Shown in pieces: positions 16,663 through 27,398 of a stretch of DNA of 64,000 nt (position 1 is the first letter of the stretch; each line of letters begins with the position of its first letter). This DNA comes from Microbacterium sp. LWO13-1.2 (GTDB lineage Bacteria; Actinomycetota; Actinomycetes; Actinomycetales; Microbacteriaceae). A model generated the notes under the pieces. It was not told the origin of the DNA and did no database searches. It saw nothing but the letters and a program-made list of their open reading frames with translations. The stretch lies in NCBI RefSeq assembly GCF_038397725.1, contig NZ_CP151634.1:2046001-2110000 (forward strand). The letters are read 5' to 3'. Both the position numbers and the translations under genes were made by a program.

Positions 16663-17652
16663 GTGCTTATTGCACAGCGTCCCACACTCATCGAGGAAAA
16701 GATCGTCGAGAACCGGAGCCGGTTCATCATCGAGCCTCTGGAGCCCGGCTTCGGATACACGATCGGCAACTCGCTGCGTCGCAGCCTGCTGTCGTCGATC
16801 CCCGGTGCCGCTGTCACCAGCGTTCGCCTCGACGGTGTGCTGCACGAGTTCAGCACCATCCCCGGCGTGAAGGAGGATGTCACCGAGATCATCCTCAACA
16901 TCAAGCAGCTCGTCGTCTCGAGCGAGCGCGATGAGCCCATCACGGCTTACCTGCGCAAGACCGGTTCTGGCGAAGTGACCGCTGCAGACATCTCGGCTCC
17001 GGCCGGTGTCGAGGTGCACAACCCCGAGCTCGTCATCGCGACCCTGAACGACACCGCGAAGTTCGAACTCGAGCTCACGATCGAGCGCGGCCGTGGCTAT
17101 GTCTCGGCGACGCAGAACCGCAACGAGTACGCCGAGGCCGGTCAGATCCCGATCGACTCGATCTACTCGCCGGTCCTGAAGGTCAGCTACCGGGTCGAGG
17201 CGACTCGTGCCGGTGAGCGCACCGACTTCGACAAGCTCATCCTCGACGTCGAGACCAAGTCCTCGATGCTTCCGCGCGACGCTGTCGCGTCGGCCGCGAA
17301 GACGCTCACCGAGCTGTTCGGTCTCGCCCGCGAGCTGAACGTCGAGGCCGAGGGCATCGAGATCGGCCCGGCGCCGGTCGAGGCGGTGAGCTCCAGCGAG
17401 CTCTCCATGCCGATCGAAGACCTCGACCTGTCGGTCCGCTCGTACAACTGCCTCAAGCGTGAAGGCATCAACACGGTGTCCGAGCTCGTCGCCCTCTCGG
17501 AGACGCAGCTCATGAACATCCGCAACTTCGGCCAGAAGTCGGTCGACGAGGTGCGCGACAAGCTCATCTCGCTCGGTCTGTCGCTCAAGGATTCGGTGCC
17601 CGGTTTCGACGGCGCCCACTTCTACGGCGGCAGCGAAGACGAGTCCTTCTGA
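16663..17652 (+). CDS. rpoA: RNA polymerase alpha subunit
   Basis: 329 residues from GTG 16663, with AAAGGA upstream. The N-terminal assembly domain begins [20 protein letters not shown] and has [20 protein letters not shown]. The C-terminal DNA- and activator-binding domain covers about residues 250-315 ([19 protein letters not shown], then [11 protein letters not shown]). It is joined to rplQ by a 34-base spacer. Confidence 0.98.
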
Positions 17653-17686
17653 CCTTCCCGAAATTCTGACCAGGAGTTAGTCAACT

Positions 17687-18364
17687 ATGCCTAAGCCCAC
17701 CAAGGGTCCCCGCCTCGGAGGCGGCCCCGCACACGAGCGCCTGATGCTTGCCAACCTCGCGGCGGCGCTCTACACCCACAAGTCGATCAAGACGACCGAG
17801 ACCAAGGCCAAGCGCCTTCGTCCGCTCGCCGAGCGACTCATCACCTTCGCCAAGCGCGGCGACCTGCACGCACGCCGTCGCGTGCTGTCGGTCATCGGTG
17901 ACAAGGAAGTCGTACACATCCTTTTCGCCGAGATCGCGCCGCTGGTTGCAGACCGTGAGGGCGGCTACACCCGCATCACGAAGGTCGGCAACCGTAAGGG
18001 CGACAACGCTCCGATGGCTGTGATCGAGCTCGTTCTCGAGCCCGTCACCCCGAAGGCGAAGTCGACCAAGAAGGCTGCTGCTGCCCCGAAGGCTGCGGAG
18101 AAGCCGGCCGAGGAGGCCCCCGTCGAGGAGGCCGCGGAGGAGACCGCTGCTCCTGCCGCGTTCGCCGCCGCAGAGTTCGGTGACGACTCGGCAGAGCCGC
18201 TCGAAGACGGTTCCGCTCCCGAGGGCTTCGACATCAAGGGCAACAAGGACTCGATGAAGTTCCACCGCCCCGATGGCCAGTGGTACGACGCCACCGTCGC
18301 CGAGGTGTGGTTCCGCACCGCTGAGGCCGCTGAAGCCGCAGGTTTCGTCGAGGCCGGCAAGTAA
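17687..18364 (+). CDS. rplQ: 50S ribosomal protein L17 with long C-terminal extension
   Basis: 225 residues. The ribosomal part is the first 120 residues ([20 protein letters not shown] at the start). A Lys/Ala/Glu-rich linker covers about 121-165. The tail has a conserved-looking segment with [20 protein letters not shown] and [16 protein letters not shown]. Comparable KGN-SM-H-AEVWF-AGF tails are known to me from other actinobacterial proteins, including L17, so the tail looks like a real small domain and not random sequence. The downstream hairpin ends the ribosomal superoperon. Confidence 0.95.
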
Positions 18365-18436: not shown

Positions 18437-20011
18437 TCAGCGGGCGCGAAGGTCCTTGCGCAGGATCTTCCCGGCAGCGGACTTCGGGATCGCATCGATG
18501 AACTCCACCTGGCGCACTTTCTCGTGCGGTGCGACCTTCGCCGTGACGTGAGCCATCACTGCATCCGCGTCGATCTCCGCGCCCTGCTGCACGACGACGA
18601 ATGCCTTCGGCACTTCCTGCCCGTCGCTGTCGAGTGCCCCGATGACGGCGGCATCGGCGATGGCCGGATGCTCGAGGAGTACGGCTTCCAGTACCGCAGG
18701 CGCGACCTGGTACCCCTTGTATTTGATGAGCTCCTTCAGGCGGTCGACGATCCGGAAGATGCCGTCGGCGGACGCCGTCGCCACATCGCCCGTGTGCAGC
18801 CAGCCGTCGGTGTCGAGCATCTCGGCGGTGGCCTCGGGGCGATTGAGGTAACCGCTCATCACCTGCGGCCCGCGCACCCACAGCTCGCCGGGTGCGCTGA
18901 CTCCGTCGGCAGAGGCTGGGACGTCTGCTCCCGATTCGGGATCGACCAGCCGCGCTTCTGTGTTCGGGACGAGCGGGCCGATCGACGACTTGTCGACGTC
19001 GTGGCGTTCTGCGGGGATCAGGGTGACCGCCGGGCTGGTCTCGGTCATGCCGTAGCCCTGGACGACCGTGCAGCCGAGTCTGTTCGCCACGGCAGCAGCC
19101 AGGGCGCCGTCCAGCGGCGCTGCGCCCGAGAAGATCACATCGACGGCGGAGAGATCGTACTGGTCGATGATCGGATGCTTCGCGAGGGCCACGGCGATCG
19201 GCGGGGCGACGAAGACCCAGGTCGTGCGATGCTCGCTGATGATGCGGAGGAACTCGGGCAGATCGAACTTCGGCATCGTCACCAGGGACGCACGCTGCCG
19301 CAGCGCGAAGTTCAGAAGTACGGTCATCCCGTAGATGTGGAAGAAGGGGAGCACGGCGAGCAGTCGGTCGGTCTCATCCACGCTCAGGACGGGGCGGCAC
19401 TGTGCGACGTTCGCCACGAGATTGCGGTGCGTGAGCATGACGCCCTTGGGCCTGCCGGTCGTTCCCGAGGAGTACGGCAGAACGGCGAGATGCGTGGCCG
19501 GATCGAATGTCACCTCCGGTGCGCCCTGGCCTTCACCGAGAAGGGCAGGGAGAGACGGATGGCCCTCGGCGCCATCGAGCACGATCACGTGATCCGCATC
19601 CATGCCCACCTTCTCGGCCGCTGCTTTCGCGCCGGCCAGGAGTGGCGAGACGGTGACAAGCCAGGTCGCCTCTGCGTCGACGAGCTGATTGGCGATCTCC
19701 TCCGGCGTGTAGAGCGAGTTGATGGTCGTCGCGGTTGCGCCGGACCGCAGGATGCCGTGGAAGACGGTGGCGAAGGCGGGGATGTTCGGGCAGAGCAGGC
19801 CGATCGTGGTGCCCACTCCGACTCCGCGAGCAGCGAGTGCACCCGCGAAGAGGTCGATCTGACCGATCAGCTGACGATAGGAGGTCTCCGCGCCACTGGT
19901 TCCGTCGACGATGGCGACAGCATTCAGTCGCGACTCCTCCAGGTCTCCGAAGAGATAGTCGTACACGGAGACATCGGGGATGTCCACGTCGGGGAACGAA
20001 CTGCGATGCAT
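18437..20011 (-). CDS. AMP-forming acyl/aryl-CoA ligase (4-coumarate-CoA ligase-like)
   Basis: 524 residues. ATG 20011 is chosen because GGAG lies 5 bases upstream and the protein then begins MHRSSFPDVDIPDVSVYDYL; a longer in-frame reading lacks a ribosome site. Adenylation motifs are clear: YSSGTTGRPKGVMLTHRN (A3), GYGMTETSP (A5), GWLHTGDVA (A7), DRLKELIKYKGYQVAP (A8), and PKSAAGKILRKDLR with the catalytic Lys (A10). It activates a carboxylic acid to its AMP ester, then the CoA thioester; the domain order matches plant 4CL and bacterial fatty/aryl-CoA ligases. The substrate cannot be read from sequence. It is monocistronic and convergent with rplQ. Confidence 0.92.
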   Translation of the reverse strand: MHRSSFPDVDIPDVSVYDYLFGDLEESRLNAVAIVDGTSGAETSYRQLIGQIDLFAGALAARGVGVGTTIGLLCPNIPAFATVFHGILRSGATATTINSLYTPEEIANQLVDAEATWLVTVSPLLAGAKAAAEKVGMDADHVIVLDGAEGHPSLPALLGEGQGAPEVTFDPATHLAVLPYSSGTTGRPKGVMLTHRNLVANVAQCRPVLSVDETDRLLAVLPFFHIYGMTVLLNFALRQRASLVTMPKFDLPEFLRIISEHRTTWVFVAPPIAVALAKHPIIDQYDLSAVDVIFSGAAPLDGALAAAVANRLGCTVVQGYGMTETSPAVTLIPAERHDVDKSSIGPLVPNTEARLVDPESGADVPASADGVSAPGELWVRGPQVMSGYLNRPEATAEMLDTDGWLHTGDVATASADGIFRIVDRLKELIKYKGYQVAPAVLEAVLLEHPAIADAAVIGALDSDGQEVPKAFVVVQQGAEIDADAVMAHVTAKVAPHEKVRQVEFIDAIPKSAAGKILRKDLRAR

Positions 20012-20112: not shown

Positions 20113-21336
20113 TCAGAGGGGGCGGACGTCCGTTGCCTCGTGCGCGCGGTAGCGCGTGCTCGGGCGCCCCTTGGTCGTGTAGTCGAGCGCACGGAGCGCG
20201 CGGCCGGAGCCGGCGAGATGCTCCAGGTAGCGACGGGCGCTCACTCGGGAGATCTGCACGTCCTCCCCGATTTCGCTGGCCGAGGCATTCGGCCGAGCAG
20301 AGAGCGCAGACACGACCCGATCCAACGTCTCGGCGCTGAGTCCCTTGGGTACCCCGAACCGCTGACGGAACGCGATGATCGCGTCGGCCGTCTCGACCCT
20401 GCGCACGACATCGTGCAGTTCGGTGTGATCGCGCAGCAGCAGCGTCGCCTCGACGCCCTCGCCGTCGACGATGCTGCCGGTGCTGCGGGCGACGAGCACA
20501 TGCGAGCCGACGATCACAGGGCGTCCTGCGGGCTCGCCTTCGCGGAGAACCGCCATCAGTTCGTCGCCCAGCACGCTGTCGGCATCCGCATCGGTGATGT
20601 CCACGGCATCCCTGCCGAGGAACCTCGCGGCCGCATCGTTGACGAGCGTGACGCGGCCCTCAGCGCTGACCGTGATCACGCCCTCGCTGAGGCGGTGCAG
20701 GGTGGTCTCCTGATTCTTCACGAGCGCGGCGATCTGGTGGGGTTCCAGACTGTAGATCCGGCGCCGGATGACGGAGGTCACCCATGCCGATCCCAATACG
20801 CCGAGCACGGCGGCGGCGAGCATCGCCGAGATCAGCCAGGTGAGGTTGCTCAGGAACTCGGCGTTCAACTCCGATTCGAGGATGCCGACCGATGCCGTGC
20901 CGATGACGTCGCCGTCCTCGTCGCGGATCGGCACCTTCACGCGCCACGACGTGCCGAGCGTGCCGGTCTGGGTACCGACGTAGATCTCACCGGAGAGCGG
21001 AACGGACGCATCGGTCGACACCTCCTCGCCGATGCGGTCGGGATTCGGGTGGGAATAGCGGATGCCGTCGGCATTGGCCACGACGACGTACGCGAGATCG
21101 GACGCTTCACGGATGACCTCGGCGACGGGCTGGATCGCGGCCGACGGGTCGATGTCATCGAACGCATCGAGAACGGTCGGCAGCGAGGCGACCGATTGTG
21201 CCACCGCCTGCATCCGCTCCTTGTAGGCCTCCCGGAGCGCATTCTCCTGGAAGGCTCCGGCCACGATGCCGGTCGCCAGGGTCACCAGGAACACGATCAG
21301 CGCCTGGAGCAGGAGCAGCTGTACGCGGAGCGTCAT
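20113..21336 (-). CDS. Membrane sensor-regulator fusion: Cache-TM-PAS front of a CitA/DcuS kinase joined to a CitB/DcuR DNA-binding domain
   Basis: 407 residues from ATG 21336 (AGGTGG 8 bases upstream). Residues 7-27 and 166-190 are membrane segments. Between them is an extracytoplasmic Cache domain with the CitA-like RYSHPNPDRIG motif (93-103). Residues 208-305 are a PAS domain ending LLLRDHTEL, where CitA-family kinases normally continue into the dimerisation helix. Instead the protein passes within about 20 residues to VPKGLSAETLDRVV and the helix-turn-helix ISRVSARRYLEHL, then GRPSTRYR, the C-terminal domain of CitB/DcuR-type response regulators. No phosphoacceptor His, ATPase or receiver domain exists. 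It is divergent from tctCBA, which it probably controls in response to an external carboxylate. One uninterrupted frame argues against a sequencing error. Confidence 0.9.
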   Translation of the reverse strand: MTLRVQLLLLQALIVFLVTLATGIVAGAFQENALREAYKERMQAVAQSVASLPTVLDAFDDIDPSAAIQPVAEVIREASDLAYVVVANADGIRYSHPNPDRIGEEVSTDASVPLSGEIYVGTQTGTLGTSWRVKVPIRDEDGDVIGTASVGILESELNAEFLSNLTWLISAMLAAAVLGVLGSAWVTSVIRRRIYSLEPHQIAALVKNQETTLHRLSEGVITVSAEGRVTLVNDAAARFLGRDAVDITDADADSVLGDELMAVLREGEPAGRPVIVGSHVLVARSTGSIVDGEGVEATLLLRDHTELHDVVRRVETADAIIAFRQRFGVPKGLSAETLDRVVSALSARPNASASEIGEDVQISRVSARRYLEHLAGSGRALRALDYTTKGRPSTRYRAHEATDVRPL

Positions 21337-21404: not shown

Positions 21405-21444
21405 GACCAATAGTTCCGAAAGCGGGACCAATGGTTTCCGAAGC
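21405..21444. promoter_or_regulatory. Two 19-bp direct repeats, putative operator of the fusion regulator
   Basis: GACCAATAGTTCCGAAAGC (21405-21423) and GACCAATGGTTTCCGAAGC (21426-21444) agree at 15 of 19 positions and start 21 bp apart, two helical turns. They end at the -35-like hexamer of the tctC promoter, the usual place for an activator. Confidence 0.6.
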
Positions 21445-21473: not shown

Positions 21474-21509
21474 TGCGGACAGCAATCACGAACGCTCAAG
21501 GAGGAGCGC

Positions 21510-22529
21510 ATGAAGAAGACACGCACCGGCATCCTGGCCGCACTCGCCACAGCCACAGCCCTGGTATTGACCTCTTGTGCCGGCGGGACGACACCCGCCG
21601 CCGATGAAGAAGGACCCGAAGAGGCGGTGTCGATCACCGACGTCTCCATCGTGGTCCCCGCAGATCCGGGCGGAGGCTGGGATCAGACCGGCCGCGCCAT
21701 GTCGGAGCTGCTGACGGGCGAGAAGATCGTCGACTCGGCACCGGTCACGAACGTCGGCGGCGCCGGCGGCACCGTCGGCCTCGCACAGCTCGCCAACCAG
21801 AAGGACCCGAACACGCTCATGGTGATGGGCCTGGTCATGGTCGGCGCCGTGGAGACGAACGCCTCTGCGGTGCGGATCGAGGACATGACGCCCATCGCCC
21901 GGCTGACCGATGAGCCACTGGTCGTCGTCGTGCCGGCCGACTCGAAATACGACACGCTCGAGGACCTGGTCGAGGACATCGTCGACAAGGGGCAGGCGAT
22001 CACCATCACGGGCGGCTCCGCCGGCGGCGCCGACCACATCCTCGCCGGACTCATGCTGGAGGCGGCCGGGCTCGATGGAGCCGAGATCGCTGAGAAGCTC
22101 AACTACACGCCGAACTCCGGCGGTGGCGAGGCGACGACGCTGATCCTCGGTGGGAAGGTCGCCGCCGGCATCTCCGGCGTCGGCGAGTTCCTGCAGCACA
22201 TCGAGGCCGGCACCATGAAGGCGCTCGCGGTCTCATCCGAGAAGCCCGTCGAGCAGCTCCCAGATGTGGACACCATCACGGATGCCGGCTACGACGTCGT
22301 GCTCACCAACTGGCGCGGAGTGATCGCACCCGGAGGAATCGACGACGCCAGCCGTGCCGAACTCGAGCGGATCGTCACCGAGCTGCACGACTCCGAGGCG
22401 TGGGCCGCAGAGCTGGAGACCCGTGGATGGGCCGACGCCTTCCTCACCGGGGCGGAGTTCGATGACTTCCTGACCGGCAACATCGAGGAAGTCACGGCGA
22501 CCCTGAAGAACATCGGATTGGTCGGCTGA
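21510..22529 (+). CDS. tctC: Tripartite tricarboxylate transporter, substrate-binding lipoprotein (TctC)
   Basis: 339 residues. A lipoprotein signal peptide is clear (MKKTRTGILAALATATALVL then the lipobox LTSC at about residues 20-24). The mature part is a TctC/BugT-type binding protein with PADPGGGWDQTGRAMSELL and NVGGAGGTVGLAQL, family hallmarks of the dicarboxylate-binding cleft. GGAGG lies ahead of ATG 21510. It delivers a di- or tricarboxylate to TctBA, encoded directly downstream. Confidence 0.95.
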   Translation: MKKTRTGILAALATATALVLTSCAGGTTPAADEEGPEEAVSITDVSIVVPADPGGGWDQTGRAMSELLTGEKIVDSAPVTNVGGAGGTVGLAQLANQKDPNTLMVMGLVMVGAVETNASAVRIEDMTPIARLTDEPLVVVVPADSKYDTLEDLVEDIVDKGQAITITGGSAGGADHILAGLMLEAAGLDGAEIAEKLNYTPNSGGGEATTLILGGKVAAGISGVGEFLQHIEAGTMKALAVSSEKPVEQLPDVDTITDAGYDVVLTNWRGVIAPGGIDDASRAELERIVTELHDSEAWAAELETRGWADAFLTGAEFDDFLTGNIEEVTATLKNIGLVG

Positions 22530-22530
22530 C

Positions 22531-23094
22531 ATGACCACGGGGTCTCCGGGAACGGGACCCGACAGCGTACGGGCCGGTACGAACCGGCCCGTACGGCTCG
22601 TCGCCTCCCTCCCGATCGGCGAACTCGTCTTCGCCGCACTCATGGTCGCGCTCGGCGTCTTCGCCCTCGTCGGCGTCTTCGCGATCCACGTCCCGGTCGG
22701 CGCGCACGTCGGGCCGCGGGTCTTTCCGATCTTCGTCGCCGTGATCCTGCTCGGTGCCGCGCTCGCGGTGCTCGTCGGCATCCTCCGCGGACAGCGTGGC
22801 GTGCCGGAAGGCGGTGAGGACATCGATCAGAGCCTGCCGACCGACTGGCTCACCCTGCTCAAGATCACCGGTCTGGTCGTGGCGCACCTGCTGCTCATCG
22901 AACCCATTGGCTGGGTTCCGGCAGCCGCTCTGCTGTTCGGCGGGGTCGCGTGGTCGCTCGGGGCCAAGCGCTGGTGGATGGCGCTCCTCATCGGGACCGG
23001 GCTCGCCCTCGTCATCCAGATCGTGTTCGGTGGCCTGCTCGGGCTTTCGCTGCCCTGGGGTCCGGCGCTCGAGTGGCTGGGAAGGATGTTCTGA
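22531..23094 (+). CDS. tctB: Tripartite tricarboxylate transporter, small membrane subunit (TctB)
   Basis: 187 residues with about four membrane helices, starting one base after the tctC stop. The segment [20 protein letters not shown] and the late [15 protein letters not shown] are typical of TctB. About 25 residues precede the first helix. The stop overlaps tctA (TGATG). Confidence 0.92.
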
Positions 23095-24641
23095 TGGACA
23101 GCTGGACTCTGCTCCTCGAGGGCTTCGCGACCGCTCTGCAGCCGCAGTACCTCGCCTTCGCCTTCTTCGGCGTGCTGGTCGGCACCGCCGTCGGCGTGCT
23201 CCCCGGTATCGGTCCCGCCATGACGGTGGCGCTGCTGCTGCCGCTGACCAACACTCTCGATCCGGCGGCCGCCCTGATCACCTTCGCCGGCATCTACTAC
23301 GGCGGAATGTACGGCGGTTCGACCACCAGCATCCTGCTGAACACCCCAGGGGAATCGGCCTCGATCGTCACCGCGATCGAGGGGAACAAGATGGCGAAGC
23401 TGGGGCGGGGTGCCGCGGCGCTCGCCACTGCCGCCCTCGGATCCTTCGTGGCCGGCACTCTTGCGACCGTCGGGCTGACGCTGCTGGCACCGGTCCTTGC
23501 ACAGTTCGCGGTGAACCTCGGGCCTGCGGACTACGTTGCCCTGATCGTGATCGCGTTCATCACCGTCGGCGCACTGATCGGATCGTCGGTATCGCGCGGA
23601 ATGCTGTCGCTCGGCGTCGGCCTCTTCCTCGGTCTCGTCGGCACGGACACGCTGTCCGGTCAGCAGCGCTACACGCTGGGGCTGCTTCCGTTGTCGGACG
23701 GCATCGACGTCGTGCTCATCGCGGTCGGCCTGTTCGCGGTGGGGGAGACGCTGTACATCGCCGCGCGGTTGCGCCACGGCGGCGTCTCCGTCATTCCCGT
23801 CACCCGCGGCCGGAGCAACAGGATGACCAGGGACGACTGGCGCCGCTCCTGGAAGCCGTGGTTGCGCGGAACTGCGATCGGCTTCCCGATCGGCACGATC
23901 CCCGCGGGTGGTGCGGATGTGGCGACCTTCCTCTCGTACGCGACGGAGCGCAAGCTCTCTCGCCACAAGGAGGAGTTCGGCCATGGGGCGATCGAGGGCG
24001 TCGCAGGTCCGGAGTCGGCGAACAACGCGGCGGCCGCCGGCGTGCTGGTGCCTCTGCTGACGCTCGGCCTGCCGACGACGGCGACGGCCGCGATCATCCT
24101 CACCGCGTTCCAGTCCTACGGGCTGCAGCCGGGTCCGATGCTCTTCCAGAGCCAGTCCACCCTGGTGTGGGCGCTGATCGCGAGCCTCTACATCGGCAAT
24201 GTCATCCTGATCGTGCTCAACCTGCCGCTGGTGGGCATGTGGGTGAAGCTGCTGCAGATCCCGCGGCCGTATCTCTATGCCGGCATCCTGATGTTCGCCG
24301 CTTTCGGGGCGTTCGCGCTGAACTTCTCGGTCGTGGACATCCTGATCCTGCTGGTCATCGGCGTGCTCGGCTATTTCATGCGACGCTACGGGTTCCCGGT
24401 CGCGCCGCTCGTGGTGGGCACGATCCTCGGCCCGATGGGGGAGGAACAGCTGCGCAAGGCGCTGCAGTTGAGTCAGGGCGACGTGACGACGCTGATCGCG
24501 CAGCCGTTCGCGGCGATCGCGTATGCGCTGCTCGCGTTGCTGATCGTGGGCGGGCTGTGGCTGCGCCGGCGGCAGCGACGGTACGAACAGGCGCTGACCG
24601 AGTCGATCGCCGTGCCGATCAAGGCCGATTCGGAAGTCTGA
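23094..24641 (+). CDS. tctA: Tripartite tricarboxylate transporter, large permease subunit (TctA)
   Basis: 515 residues from ATG 23094, which overlaps the tctB stop by one base. The TctA signature [20 protein letters not shown] and [20 protein letters not shown] lie in the first 85 residues. The repeated signature [16 protein letters not shown] and the [10 protein letters not shown] segment follow in the second half. About 11-12 membrane helices are visible. It forms the proton- or sodium-driven permease with TctB and the TctC receptor. Confidence 0.96.
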
Positions 24642-24701: not shown

Positions 24702-25502
24702 GTGATGGATGTCGCAGCTTCGCCGCGCCGCGGGGCTCGGGCCTACGCGGCTTTCGTGGTCATCGGGCTGCTCGCCGGTCTTCTCTCCGGACTCTTCGGC
24801 GTCGGCGGCGGCACCGTCATCGTGCCCCTGCTGGTGCTGCTTCTGCAGTTCGATCAGCGCATCGCGGCCGGCACCTCGCTCGCAGCGATCGTGCCGACGG
24901 CTACGGTCGGCGTGGTCTCTTATGCGGTGTCGGGTTCGGTGGCCTGGGTCCCCGCGATCATCCTCGCGGCCGGTGCGGTGGTGGGTGCCCAGATCGGCAC
25001 CTGGCTGCTGCCGCGGATCTCGCAGACGGCGCTGAGGTGGGGCTTCTTCGGGTTCCTGGTCGTCGTCATCGCGAGCCTGTTCCTGGTGATCCCTTCTCGA
25101 GATGCCGCCTTCGCGCTCACCTGGTGGAGCGGAATCGCACTCGTCGCCGTCGGCGTCGGCGCCGGGCTCCTCGCCGGCCTGATCGGCGTCGGCGGCGGTG
25201 TGATCGTCGTTCCCGTGCTCATGCTGGCGTTCGGGACGAGCGACCTGGTCGCCAAGGGCACGTCGCTGCTGATGATGATTCCGACGGCCGTCTCCGGCAC
25301 CGTCGGCAATATCCGGCATCGAAACGTCGACCTGATCGCCGCGGCGGTGATCGGCGCCTCCGCCTGCACGACGACCGCACTCGGCGCGTGGTTGGCGACG
25401 ATCATCGATCCGGCGGCGGGCAACATGCTGTTCGCGGCATATCTCGTCGTGATCGCTGCGCAGATGGCGATGAAAGCCATCCGCGGACGCAAGCGGGGCT
25501 GA
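24702..25502 (+). CDS. TauE/SafE-family (sulfite/organosulfonate exporter type) membrane protein
   Basis: 266 residues from GTG 24702 (265 from ATG 24705). The TauE/SafE double repeat is clear: GLLSGLFGVGGGTVIVPLLV near residue 30 and GLIGVGGGVIVVPVLMLAFG near 160, each followed by A(A/K)GTSL. About eight membrane segments. The family moves sulfite, sulfoacetate or other anions; the substrate here is unknown. TAGGCT (24690-24695) lies 6 bases before the GTG, suggesting a leaderless mRNA starting there; alternatively GGAGA serves the ATG. Confidence 0.88.
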   Translation: MMDVAASPRRGARAYAAFVVIGLLAGLLSGLFGVGGGTVIVPLLVLLLQFDQRIAAGTSLAAIVPTATVGVVSYAVSGSVAWVPAIILAAGAVVGAQIGTWLLPRISQTALRWGFFGFLVVVIASLFLVIPSRDAAFALTWWSGIALVAVGVGAGLLAGLIGVGGGVIVVPVLMLAFGTSDLVAKGTSLLMMIPTAVSGTVGNIRHRNVDLIAAAVIGASACTTTALGAWLATIIDPAAGNMLFAAYLVVIAAQMAMKAIRGRKRG

Positions 25503-25582: not shown

Positions 25583-25843
25583 ATGACCTCCGCACGACGC
25601 ATCCTGATCCCGGGCGCTCTGATCGCACTTCCGGTGGCCTTCGCCGTGGGCATCGTGGCGCACGCGCAGATGCCCGCAGCTCCGCGGCTGCCGGACGCGC
25701 CGGTCACGGTGCAGCTGGCTTCGCCGACGCCGGTCACTCCGGCCCCGCCGGCGCCGCAGGTAGAACCCGCGCCTGCACCACCGGCCGCTCCGGCGCCGGG
25801 TGTTCCCGGCGACGACGACGATGACGAGGGCGACGATGACTGA
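25583..25843 (+). CDS. Small membrane-anchored protein, Pro/Ala-rich with a poly-Asp tail
   Basis: 86 residues from ATG 25583 (AGGA 8 bases upstream). One membrane segment or uncleaved signal (ILIPGALIALPVAFAVGIVA, about residues 7-26) is followed by a Pro-rich stretch with repeated APP/APAP and the end DDDDDEGDDD. No family is recognised. The stop overlaps the histidine kinase start by 8 bases, so it is translated with it. The acidic end, probably outside the cell, could bind divalent metal or cationic compounds and modulate the kinase; this is inference. Confidence 0.75.
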   Translation: MTSARRILIPGALIALPVAFAVGIVAHAQMPAAPRLPDAPVTVQLASPTPVTPAPPAPQVEPAPAPPAAPAPGVPGDDDDDEGDDD

Positions 25844-27398
25844 TCCGCTGGTCGACCTGCACCAGGTCGCCGAGACCGACGACGTCCGCGTCGGCCGGCC
25901 GGGCACTCCGCTGCGCACCCTGCGTGCCCGGTCGATGCCCGCCCGCTGGAGGATCACCGCCTGGATCATCCTCAGCACGATGGTCACGCTCGTCGCGGTG
26001 GGCATGATCGGCCGCAGCATCTTCGTGGCCGGCGTGGAGCGGGCGGCGAACACCGAGATCGAACAGGAAGCCGATGAGTTCATCCGGTTCTCGGAGAAGG
26101 CCGGGGCAGAGGGGCTCTCCACTCCGGAGCAGCTCCTGCAGGAATACGTGGCGCGGCAGGTGCTGCACGACGAGGTCGTCGTCGGAATCGTCGACGGGTC
26201 GATCGTCGCGGTGGCGAACGGCCTCACGGGAGCGAACTCGGTGAGCGGCGGTTCCGCAGAGGTGCCGGGTGGTGACGGACTCGTCGGCCGGCTGCTGGAC
26301 TCGAATGCGGCATCCGGTGTCGTCGAGACCGGAGACACCGGACCCGCGCGATGGGGACGGCTGGAGTTCACGTCGGGCGACAGCGGCGGGACGCTGATGA
26401 TCCTGCAGTTCACGCAGGATGCTCGAGCTCAGGTCGACGAGAGCTTCACCGGGATCGCCTGGGCCGCCCTCCTCGGCCTGCTGCTCAGTTCGGGAGTCGC
26501 ATGGCTCGTCGCCGGTCAGATCCTCGCGCCGGTGCGCGACGTCTACCGCGTCGCGCGCGACATCGGCGAGCACGATCTCACCGCCCGCGTGCCGGTGGAC
26601 GGCAGCGACGACATCGCGGCCGTCGCGACGACTTTCAACCAGATGCTCGATCGACTCGAGGCCGTCCATGCCACGCAGCAGAGATTCGTCGACGATGCGG
26701 GTCACGAACTGCGCACCCCGATCACGATCGTTCGCGGCCACCTGGAACTGCTCAGCGACGACCCTGAGGAGCGCAAGGCCACGCTGCGGCTGATCAGCGA
26801 CGAACTCGATCGGATGAGCCGCATCGTCACCGACCTGCTCGTCCTCGCCCGCGCGCAGCAACCGGACTTCGTCCGCGTCGCATCGTGTGATGTGACCGCG
26901 CTCACGCTCGACATCGAGGCGAAGGCGCAGGCGCTCGGTGCTCGACGATGGCAACTGATGGAGGTCGCCGAGGGCAGCGTCCGCCTCGATCCGCAGCGCG
27001 TCACCCAAGCCGTTCTGCAGTTCGCGGCCAACGCGGTGCAGGTGACCGATGAGGACGACCGCATTCGGATGGGCTCCCGCTTCGAAGGAGACGGCACCGA
27101 GCGGTTGCTGCGGCTCTGGGTGCAGGACACCGGCCCTGGCGTGCTCGCGGAGGATGCGGAGCGGATCTTCGAGCGCTTCGTCCGCGGCTCCGCTCGCGGC
27201 GACACGGTCGGGCGGCATGGCTCGGGCCTCGGGCTCGCCATCGTGCGCGCGATCACCGACGGCCACGGCGGATCGGCCTGGGTCGACAGCGTCCCGGGCG
27301 AGGGCGCCACTTTCGGAATCGACATCCCGGCGCCGATCGACGCACGGGAATCGGCTGCCGGCGAACGGTCGCCGGCGCTCATCGCAGAGAGGAACTGA
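25836..27398 (+). CDS. Sensor histidine kinase with HAMP domain
   Basis: 520 residues from ATG 25836 (GAGGG upstream), overlapping the preceding gene. Membrane segments at about 40-66 and 206-226 flank an extracytoplasmic sensor region with no recognised fold. HAMP about 228-280, then the phosphoacceptor His290 (DDAGHELRTP), N-box Asn399, G1 DTGPGV (431-436) and G2 GSGLGL (462-467). All catalytic motifs are intact. It is followed after one base by its OmpR-type partner. The signal is unknown; the DASS transporter and glycerate kinase downstream suggest an organic acid. Confidence 0.95.
   Translation: MTDPLVDLHQVAETDDVRVGRPGTPLRTLRARSMPARWRITAWIILSTMVTLVAVGMIGRSIFVAGVERAANTEIEQEADEFIRFSEKAGAEGLSTPEQLLQEYVARQVLHDEVVVGIVDGSIVAVANGLTGANSVSGGSAEVPGGDGLVGRLLDSNAASGVVETGDTGPARWGRLEFTSGDSGGTLMILQFTQDARAQVDESFTGIAWAALLGLLLSSGVAWLVAGQILAPVRDVYRVARDIGEHDLTARVPVDGSDDIAAVATTFNQMLDRLEAVHATQQRFVDDAGHELRTPITIVRGHLELLSDDPEERKATLRLISDELDRMSRIVTDLLVLARAQQPDFVRVASCDVTALTLDIEAKAQALGARRWQLMEVAEGSVRLDPQRVTQAVLQFAANAVQVTDEDDRIRMGSRFEGDGTERLLRLWVQDTGPGVLAEDAERIFERFVRGSARGDTVGRHGSGLGLAIVRAITDGHGGSAWVDSVPGEGATFGIDIPAPIDARESAAGERSPALIAERN

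Follow-up and report, generated by a model that had tools for sequence, protein, structure and literature searches.

One deletion in a CitA-CitB operon has probably given rise to a phosphorylation-free, citrate-responsive transmembrane regulator of the tctCBA genes in Microbacterium. The regulator is encoded in the window (the whole stretch of 64,000 nucleotides of Microbacterium sp. LWO13-1.2 that was analysed) by a single gene, in which the front of a CitA/DcuS kinase and the end of a CitB/DcuR regulator form one protein. The gene and its parts are the following, with residues numbered on the encoded protein:

20113..21336, minus strand: fusion regulator gene P0001, 407 amino acids, ATG at 21336 and TGA at 20113, with full-length homologues
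21256..21318, minus strand: predicted first membrane helix, about residues 7-27 (hydropathy 2.59 at residues 7-25; modelled helix 3-50)
20851..21246, minus strand: extracytoplasmic sCache_3_2 sensor, residues 31-162 (Pfam, E 7.8e-33, over the cut-off)
20779..20835, minus strand: predicted second membrane helix, about residues 168-186 (hydropathy 2.10; modelled helix 154-195)
20422..20751, minus strand: cytoplasmic PAS domain, residues 196-305 (Pfam PAS_4; profile match to the DcuS PAS structure 2w0n, E 3.3e-10)
20347..20421, minus strand: junction, residues 306-330, with the best breakpoint near 20385
20143..20346, minus strand: CitB/DcuR-type winged HTH, residues 331-398 (NCBIfam DcuR match at residues 326-399; winged-HTH elements in the models)

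The frame of the fusion gene stays open upstream as far as 21489, and ATG 21336 was considered as the start because it is backed by the homologues. The PAS_4 match is weak (23.7 bits for a Pfam cut-off of 23.1), and none of the HATPase, HisKA/SPOB and Response_reg families of Pfam was found in the protein at E ≤ 1. In NCBIfam, the DcuS/MalK kinase model (529 positions) is matched by residues 1-315 over its positions 4-324 (score of 186.7 for a cut-off of 520), and the DcuR model (239 positions) by residues 326-399 over its positions 152-227; both matches are far under the whole-protein cut-offs, as expected of two partial proteins. The sCache_3 sensor, the PAS domain and the two (predicted) membrane helices of a DcuS/CitA kinase are present, and its phosphoacceptor helix and HATPase are missing. 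On the regulator side, the C-terminal CitB-type HTH is present and can be aligned with the regulators of two-component loci, and the N-terminal receiver with its phosphoacceptor Asp is missing. A profile of 16 fusions matches the Cache and PAS structures of CitA and DcuS in the PDB. The preliminary description, which had read the protein as a Cache sensor, two membrane helices and a PAS domain followed by a CitB/DcuR HTH, with the phosphoacceptor helix, the ATPase and the receiver all absent, is thus borne out by Pfam, NCBIfam, hydropathy and AlphaFold2.

The structure prediction proposed at that stage was produced with AlphaFold2 (59 aligned rows, mean pLDDT of 81.8, pTM of 0.45) and displays long helices at residues 3-50 and 154-195 together with the Cache, the PAS and a winged HTH (335-398), these domains being modelled with good confidence. 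A second model, based on 28 fusions alone, had a mean pLDDT of 76.4 and a pTM of 0.39. The junction was not fixed by either model (pLDDT below 50 at residues 310-327, and at residues 307-316 in the second). For the fusion model, the first PDB row was an integrative model of WalK-YycH (TM by query of 0.37), and the next match was the citrate-bound CitA Cache of Geobacillus thermodenitrificans (8bgb; rmsd of 1.0-1.3 and TM by target of 0.91-0.94, seven chains being listed).

Residues R93, S95, H96, P97, R132 and K134 are invariant in 40 distinct fusions and 43 kinases, and in the alignments the position of K134 holds K in the CitA structures and F in DcuS. Residues of the R93, H96, R132 and K134 type presumably contact citrate in CitA, and a Geobacillus CitA R93A mutant, whose mutated residue aligns with R93 of the fusion, is citrate-free by its PDB title. 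From the conservation of these residues and the match to the CitA fold, we infer that citrate or a close tricarboxylate is the probable ligand.

As announced in the preliminary description, the fusion gene faces tctCBA, from which it is separated by a putative operator:

21405..21421, plus strand: putative operator unit 1, GACCAATAGTTCCGAAA, tandem repeat
21426..21442, plus strand: putative operator unit 2, GACCAATGGTTTCCGAA, direct repeat at +21
21510..22529, plus strand: tctC, solute-binding protein, divergent from the regulator and the same neighbour in nearly all mapped relatives
22531..23094, plus strand: tctB, open reading frame, also in related loci
23094..24641, plus strand: tctA, start at about 23094, also in related loci
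24702..25502, plus strand: TSUP-type permease after tctA, shared by 29 of 30 large fusion loci (L106 lacks it)

The names tctC, tctB and tctA, given by family resemblance, and the assignment of the permease at 24702..25502 to the TSUP family are presumptive. In most related loci tctA, tctB and tctC are oriented away from a pair of kinase and regulator genes, the kinase gene coming first, and the fusion occupies nearly always the same slot beside tctC as this kinase-regulator pair in relatives; L045 is an exception in gene direction, its tctC not being divergent. The surroundings of the two kinds of loci are different: among the 30 large fusion loci, 24 have rpoA/rplQ in the vicinity, versus one of 41 other loci (L133, a broken fusion), and an acyl-CoA synthetase gene adjoins the locus in 22 of the 30 and, among the 41 others, in L133 alone. 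In the window, the acyl-CoA synthetase/rpoA-rplQ side of the fusion locus has the coordinates 18437-20011 and 16663-18364. Since the chromosome neighbourhood differs between fusion and other loci, the tct locus would have moved or been acquired by transfer; relocation before the deletion and relocation after it both fit.

In 69 two-component loci, the distance from the end of the PAS domain to the HTH is 1016-1242 nt (median of 1067; L002, L003, L049, L050 and L133 were left out of this count), and in the kinase loci with large flanks the kinase core and the receiver sit in this interval. No receiver match was obtained in the 30 large fusion loci, and no kinase core was found between PAS and HTH in fusion loci; a weak kinase-core match detected about 6 kb off in 12 of the 30 lies at the place of an unrelated sensor kinase ORF of the window (25800-27398). 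A comparison of the fusion to 19 kinase/regulator pairs placed the optimal single breakpoint before residue 318, so that the junction initially proposed at residues 306-328 was rightly placed. The kinase-derived part continues through the linker past RDHTELH and the regulator-derived part begins in the linker ahead of PKGLS, most of residues 320-328 being poorly similar to either parent.

The sensor tree was built from 40 distinct fusions, retained from 61 flagged loci, many of which were duplicates of one contig (the L032 fragment and the L051 remnant were left out), and from 43 of 74 kinases (7 partial, short or distant ones, 17 without the junction motif and 7 identical ones were removed). 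All 40 fusions form one side of one branch within the 43 kinases (SH-aLRT of 100), and their neighbours are the kinases of Pseudolysinimonas (L053, with the same sensor sequence as L108) and of genome G238. The TctC (98) and TctA (90) trees split fusion from kinase loci with one change each, long-branch warnings being obtained in both. As far as such trees can tell, all three fit a single origin of the fusion. The one in-frame deletion in a kinase-regulator operon that had been suggested beforehand is supported by these single-branch trees, by the missing 1016-1242 nt and by the shared slot.

Homologues of the same architecture, whose search had also been proposed, were looked for in 366 Microbacterium genomes (E ≤ 1e-60). 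A match was obtained in 98 of them, one per genome: a full-length fusion in 54 (identity of 71-100%), a match restricted to residues 1-3 to 315-321 within longer frames in 42, which were considered as kinase-type (gene content being confirmed in the examined loci, a subset of these 42 genomes), and a broken fusion copy in two (G181 and G184). Fusion and kinase-type match were found together in none of the 366 genomes at this threshold. More distant CitA-type kinases can occur in fusion genomes, including that of the window: at 3355820-3357744 the LWO13-1.2 genome has an ordinary CitA-CitB-type pair (L002/L003), 32% and 45% identical to the fusion halves. By record name the fusion carriers are M. 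maritypicum, M. oxydans, M. hydrocarbonoxydans, M. aurantiacum, M. azadirachtae and other Microbacterium, one fusion record carrying the title Actinomycetales bacterium SN12.

Beyond the genus, no full-length fusion was present among the matches listed for 398 genomes of the family, 396 of the order (E ≤ 1e-80) and 394 of the class (E ≤ 1e-38), three samples that overlap and contain genus members. No more than 4 to 9 first-look candidates were scored for each genome in the multi-genome searches, which are sensitive to similar fusions, those of low similarity or in other phyla being expected to escape them. A species-wide scan (one genome per species, 84,980 species), from which the above record names of fusion carriers were obtained, was based on the patterns LRDHTELH and ADAIIAFR, which reach close relatives only. 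Some of the listed matches extend beyond residue 330, as another fusion would, and 18 such places were examined: none held a sensor-HTH fusion, 13 held a kinase, a receiver and an HTH, and 5 held proteins of about 890-930 amino acids with a similar sensor and no match to kinase core, receiver or HTH.

These five proteins (L145, L146, L150, L151 and L152) belong to other actinobacterial genomes, and their ends, judged by eye, presumably resemble phosphatase/anti-sigma-factor output; given such proteins, this type of sensor may have been given a new output on more than one occasion. In some Microbacterium genomes, shorter CitA-type kinases also adjoin further copies of tctCBA (L049, 3236-4576 in minus-strand coordinates, and L050, 3429-5228), and from their sequences these appear to be another shortened receptor form, devoid of a PAS domain.

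Selection was estimated on 150 fusion pairs (identity of 86-99%) in six stretches of the gene. The median dN/dS was 0.03-0.11 in each stretch and lowest, at 0.032, in the junction, which at the level of sequence comparison shows purifying selection on the fusion. Loss of the phosphotransfer domains, together with broken copies in three genomes of the genus (L051 in G181, L032 in G184 and L133 in G042, the last one assigned by contig number and coordinates and falling short of E ≤ 1e-60), could indicate a dead relic or a dominant-negative vestige of a two-component system that was lost. Such a leftover is very improbable in view of the 54 intact copies in 366 genomes, the low dN/dS in every domain and the retention of the operator, and the pseudogene reading was rejected. 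In L051 and L133, tctC, tctB and part of tctA are missing too from the examined stretch, so that loss of the regulator goes with that of its target; G184 still has tctC, in an assembly that seems to be of poor quality. L051 (3512-4631) and L133 (4761-6685) lack the sensor end of the regulator, with different breakpoints, and retain a remnant of its HTH end. Frameshifts were noticed in the fusion (L032 and L133), in the neighbouring acyl-CoA synthetase gene (L032, L120 and L133) and in tctA (L120), and probably reflect poor assemblies in these three loci and not biology.

The segment from RDHTELH to PKGLS has 33 residues in all 40 distinct fusions. An assembly or sequencing artefact that fused two genes would account for an in-frame joint, but the recurrence of this identical joint across many separate assemblies refutes it, and its probability is so small that it can be set aside: the fusion is neither a pseudogene nor an assembly error. 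This fixed length, with 18 of the 25 junction residues invariant across the 40 fusions, also bears on whether the HTH half works after proteolytic release, as in membrane-tethered transcription factors. A membrane tether restricts the search for the operator and cleavage is compatible with the present data, but such a constrained junction is expected of an obligatory coupling between PAS and HTH, and release is held to be improbable.

The candidate operator that had been noticed at 21405-21444 proved to be a real tandem repeat, unique in the genome. The motif GACCAATRNTTNC has two exact copies in the 4,008,377 bases of the genome, both before tctC and 21 bp apart; with one mismatch allowed there are 21 more, giving 23 in total versus 16 for a reversed-pattern control. 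Operator units were counted in the intergenic regions of 40 fusion loci and 58 two-component loci, after removal of identical regions, L045, the loci lacking a tctC match and six partial or distant loci; owing to a misplaced start the regions of L110 and L063 are too short, so that the two-component count is an underestimate, and the scores are descriptive, the consensus being derived from the same sequences that it scores. Two good units (≥12/15) were found in 39 of the 40 fusion regions, with a spacing of +20 (9 regions) or +21 (30 regions), and one unit only in that of L101. A first unit scoring ≥12 was found in 26 of the 58 two-component regions. Within these 26, the second unit is equally good in 2 (L033 and L109), partial in 16 (score of 8-10, mostly at +19 or +20) and practically wanting in 8, including the nearest relatives L053 and L054. 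The motif is thus common to both kinds of loci, and the second unit is completed in the fusion clade, though not exclusively there. Some more distant loci carry another repeat. The recognition-helix stretch of the fusion, SRVSARRYLEHL, recurs unchanged in some near regulators (L053), and others deviate from it by 1-3 residues; positions 340, 389 and 397 carry a basic residue in nearly all fusions and in a minority of the near regulators, and our guess is that these residues may raise the affinity for DNA.

No promoter above threshold was detected before tctC by the promoter scan. The pattern TTGA[GA]C-N16-18-NANNGT, drawn by eye as a promoter and present in 22 of the 40 fusion intergenic regions, was dropped as evidence, and a -35-like TTGAGC was seen by eye in 20 of the 40. 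The operator ends 67 bases upstream of the tctC start, just ahead of a weak promoter-like pair recognised by eye. The ribosome-binding site of tctC lies within a small inverted repeat, CGCTCAAGGAGGAGCG (21493-21509), of which a CGCTC[AG]AGGAGGAGCG form is present in 37 of the 40 distinct fusion intergenic regions and CACTCGAGGAGGAGT-like versions in other loci; comparison of the sequences suggests paired changes between loci.

The closest system of known function is CitAB of C. glutamicum, which according to passages of PMC3353115 is required for the citrate-induced expression of citH and tctCBA, CitB binding both promoters. It has the same sensor family, HTH family and target type (tctCBA) as the fusion, but consists of two proteins with phosphotransfer, whereas the fusion is one protein without kinase or receiver. 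A wiring of the CitAB type is presumed to be the ancestral state. For MaeR, a regulator of the same family, passages of PMC5457438 report binding to direct repeats and a phosphorylation that strengthens this binding and is needed in vivo, which counts against a phosphorylation-free reading; in the fusion, dimerisation of the sensor would stand in for that phosphorylation.

Transmembrane transcription regulators (TTR) are presented in passages of PMC10269533 as widespread proteins that combine a DNA-binding domain with at least one membrane region, and hybrid TTRs, which keep a response-regulator, HATPase or HisKA domain, are proposed there to derive from two-component systems. By prediction the fusion is a TTR; it is not a hybrid one, as none of these three domains was found in it (Pfam, E ≤ 1). 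The same passages describe Rsp as a chimera of a PilS sensor and a PilR DNA-binding domain that represses pilA (PMC10269533). Rsp, for which a single species, Neisseria gonorrhoeae, is named, is described as having arisen by fusion of the two-component genes nps and npa, with no apparent role in pilE transcription. As far as these sources go, in Rsp as in the Microbacterium fusion an adjacent kinase and regulator were merged into a membrane protein with a C-terminal DNA-binding domain, whereas the domain families differ (PilS/PilR type) and the Microbacterium fusion is carried by at least 54 genomes, under purifying selection, with a linked operator and target. Given the Rsp precedent, this kind of fusion was already known. 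No description of a CitA-CitB fusion was found in the open-access literature that was searched, and the earlier supposition that the exact architecture is undescribed stands, within that literature, for the CitA/CitB version and falls for the kind. The apparent novelty lies in the CitA/CitB version, in its clade-wide spread and conservation, in an ancestral state that is still alive in the genus, and in the linked operator.

ToxR and CadC have an N-terminal OmpR-type HTH, one membrane helix and a C-terminal sensor. They share with the fusion a DNA-binding domain and a membrane helix in one protein, but membership of their group was rejected on account of the C-terminal CitB-type HTH, the two predicted helices and the Cache and PAS domains; no Trans_reg_C family is listed for the fusion in Pfam. 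The comparison with ToxR/CadC made in the preliminary description is thus retained, by prediction, for the transmembrane class (TTR) and abandoned for the topology. In soluble regulators such as PpsR, a helical linker connects a PAS domain to an HTH, and Cache and membrane helices are absent. The PpsR structures are among the fold matches of the fusion, on the PAS side, and the fusion differs from PpsR by its Cache and its membrane helices.

In the proposed mechanism, the deletion would span from the end of the kinase PAS linker to the linker ahead of the regulator HTH, and its product would be a dimer located in the membrane. Citrate or a close tricarboxylate would bind the extracytoplasmic Cache, and the signal would reach the junction by way of the second membrane helix and the PAS; the junction would place the two HTH domains on the tandem operator upstream of tctC, whose repeat of 20-21 bp would be about two DNA turns. 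We infer that the fusion most likely activates tctCBA, an argument by analogy since no promoter passed the threshold and the -35-like element is seen in just those 20 regions. Conversely, it could be a ligand-controlled repressor, keeping tctCBA off until the ligand releases it: the anatomy of the fusion leaves the sign of control open to repression, and Rsp, the closest fusion precedent, is a repressor of pilA in the cited passages. Repression is rather unlikely, as the C. glutamicum relative activates tctCBA and the position of the operator is activator-like, with the reserve that the promoter there is weak and drawn by eye.

The preferred reading of a phosphorylation-free, probably activating regulator can be extended to the whole clade. 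A two-component system would then have been converted by deletion and fixed clade-wide, with the junction as a new coupling element and an operator remodelled to two full units 20-21 bp apart, while sister species keep the pair beside tctC; the arguments for and against this broader statement are considered as evenly balanced. In the usual account, two-component systems arise from one-component systems. The Microbacterium locus would represent the reverse route, with both states living in one genus beside the same target and an operator that is still recognisable. If true, it provides a natural series for the conversion of a two-component into a one-component system, and a natural experiment on the worth of phosphotransfer, on the direct control of an HTH by a Cache-PAS sensor, and on the adaptation of a DNA site to a regulator newly tied to the membrane. 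A short and portable membrane device that links the sensing of extracellular carboxylates to a promoter could be designed on this model. In one branch of Microbacterium, a pair of carboxylate-sensing proteins would have become a single membrane protein, and the pathway shortened, apparently without phosphate transfer.
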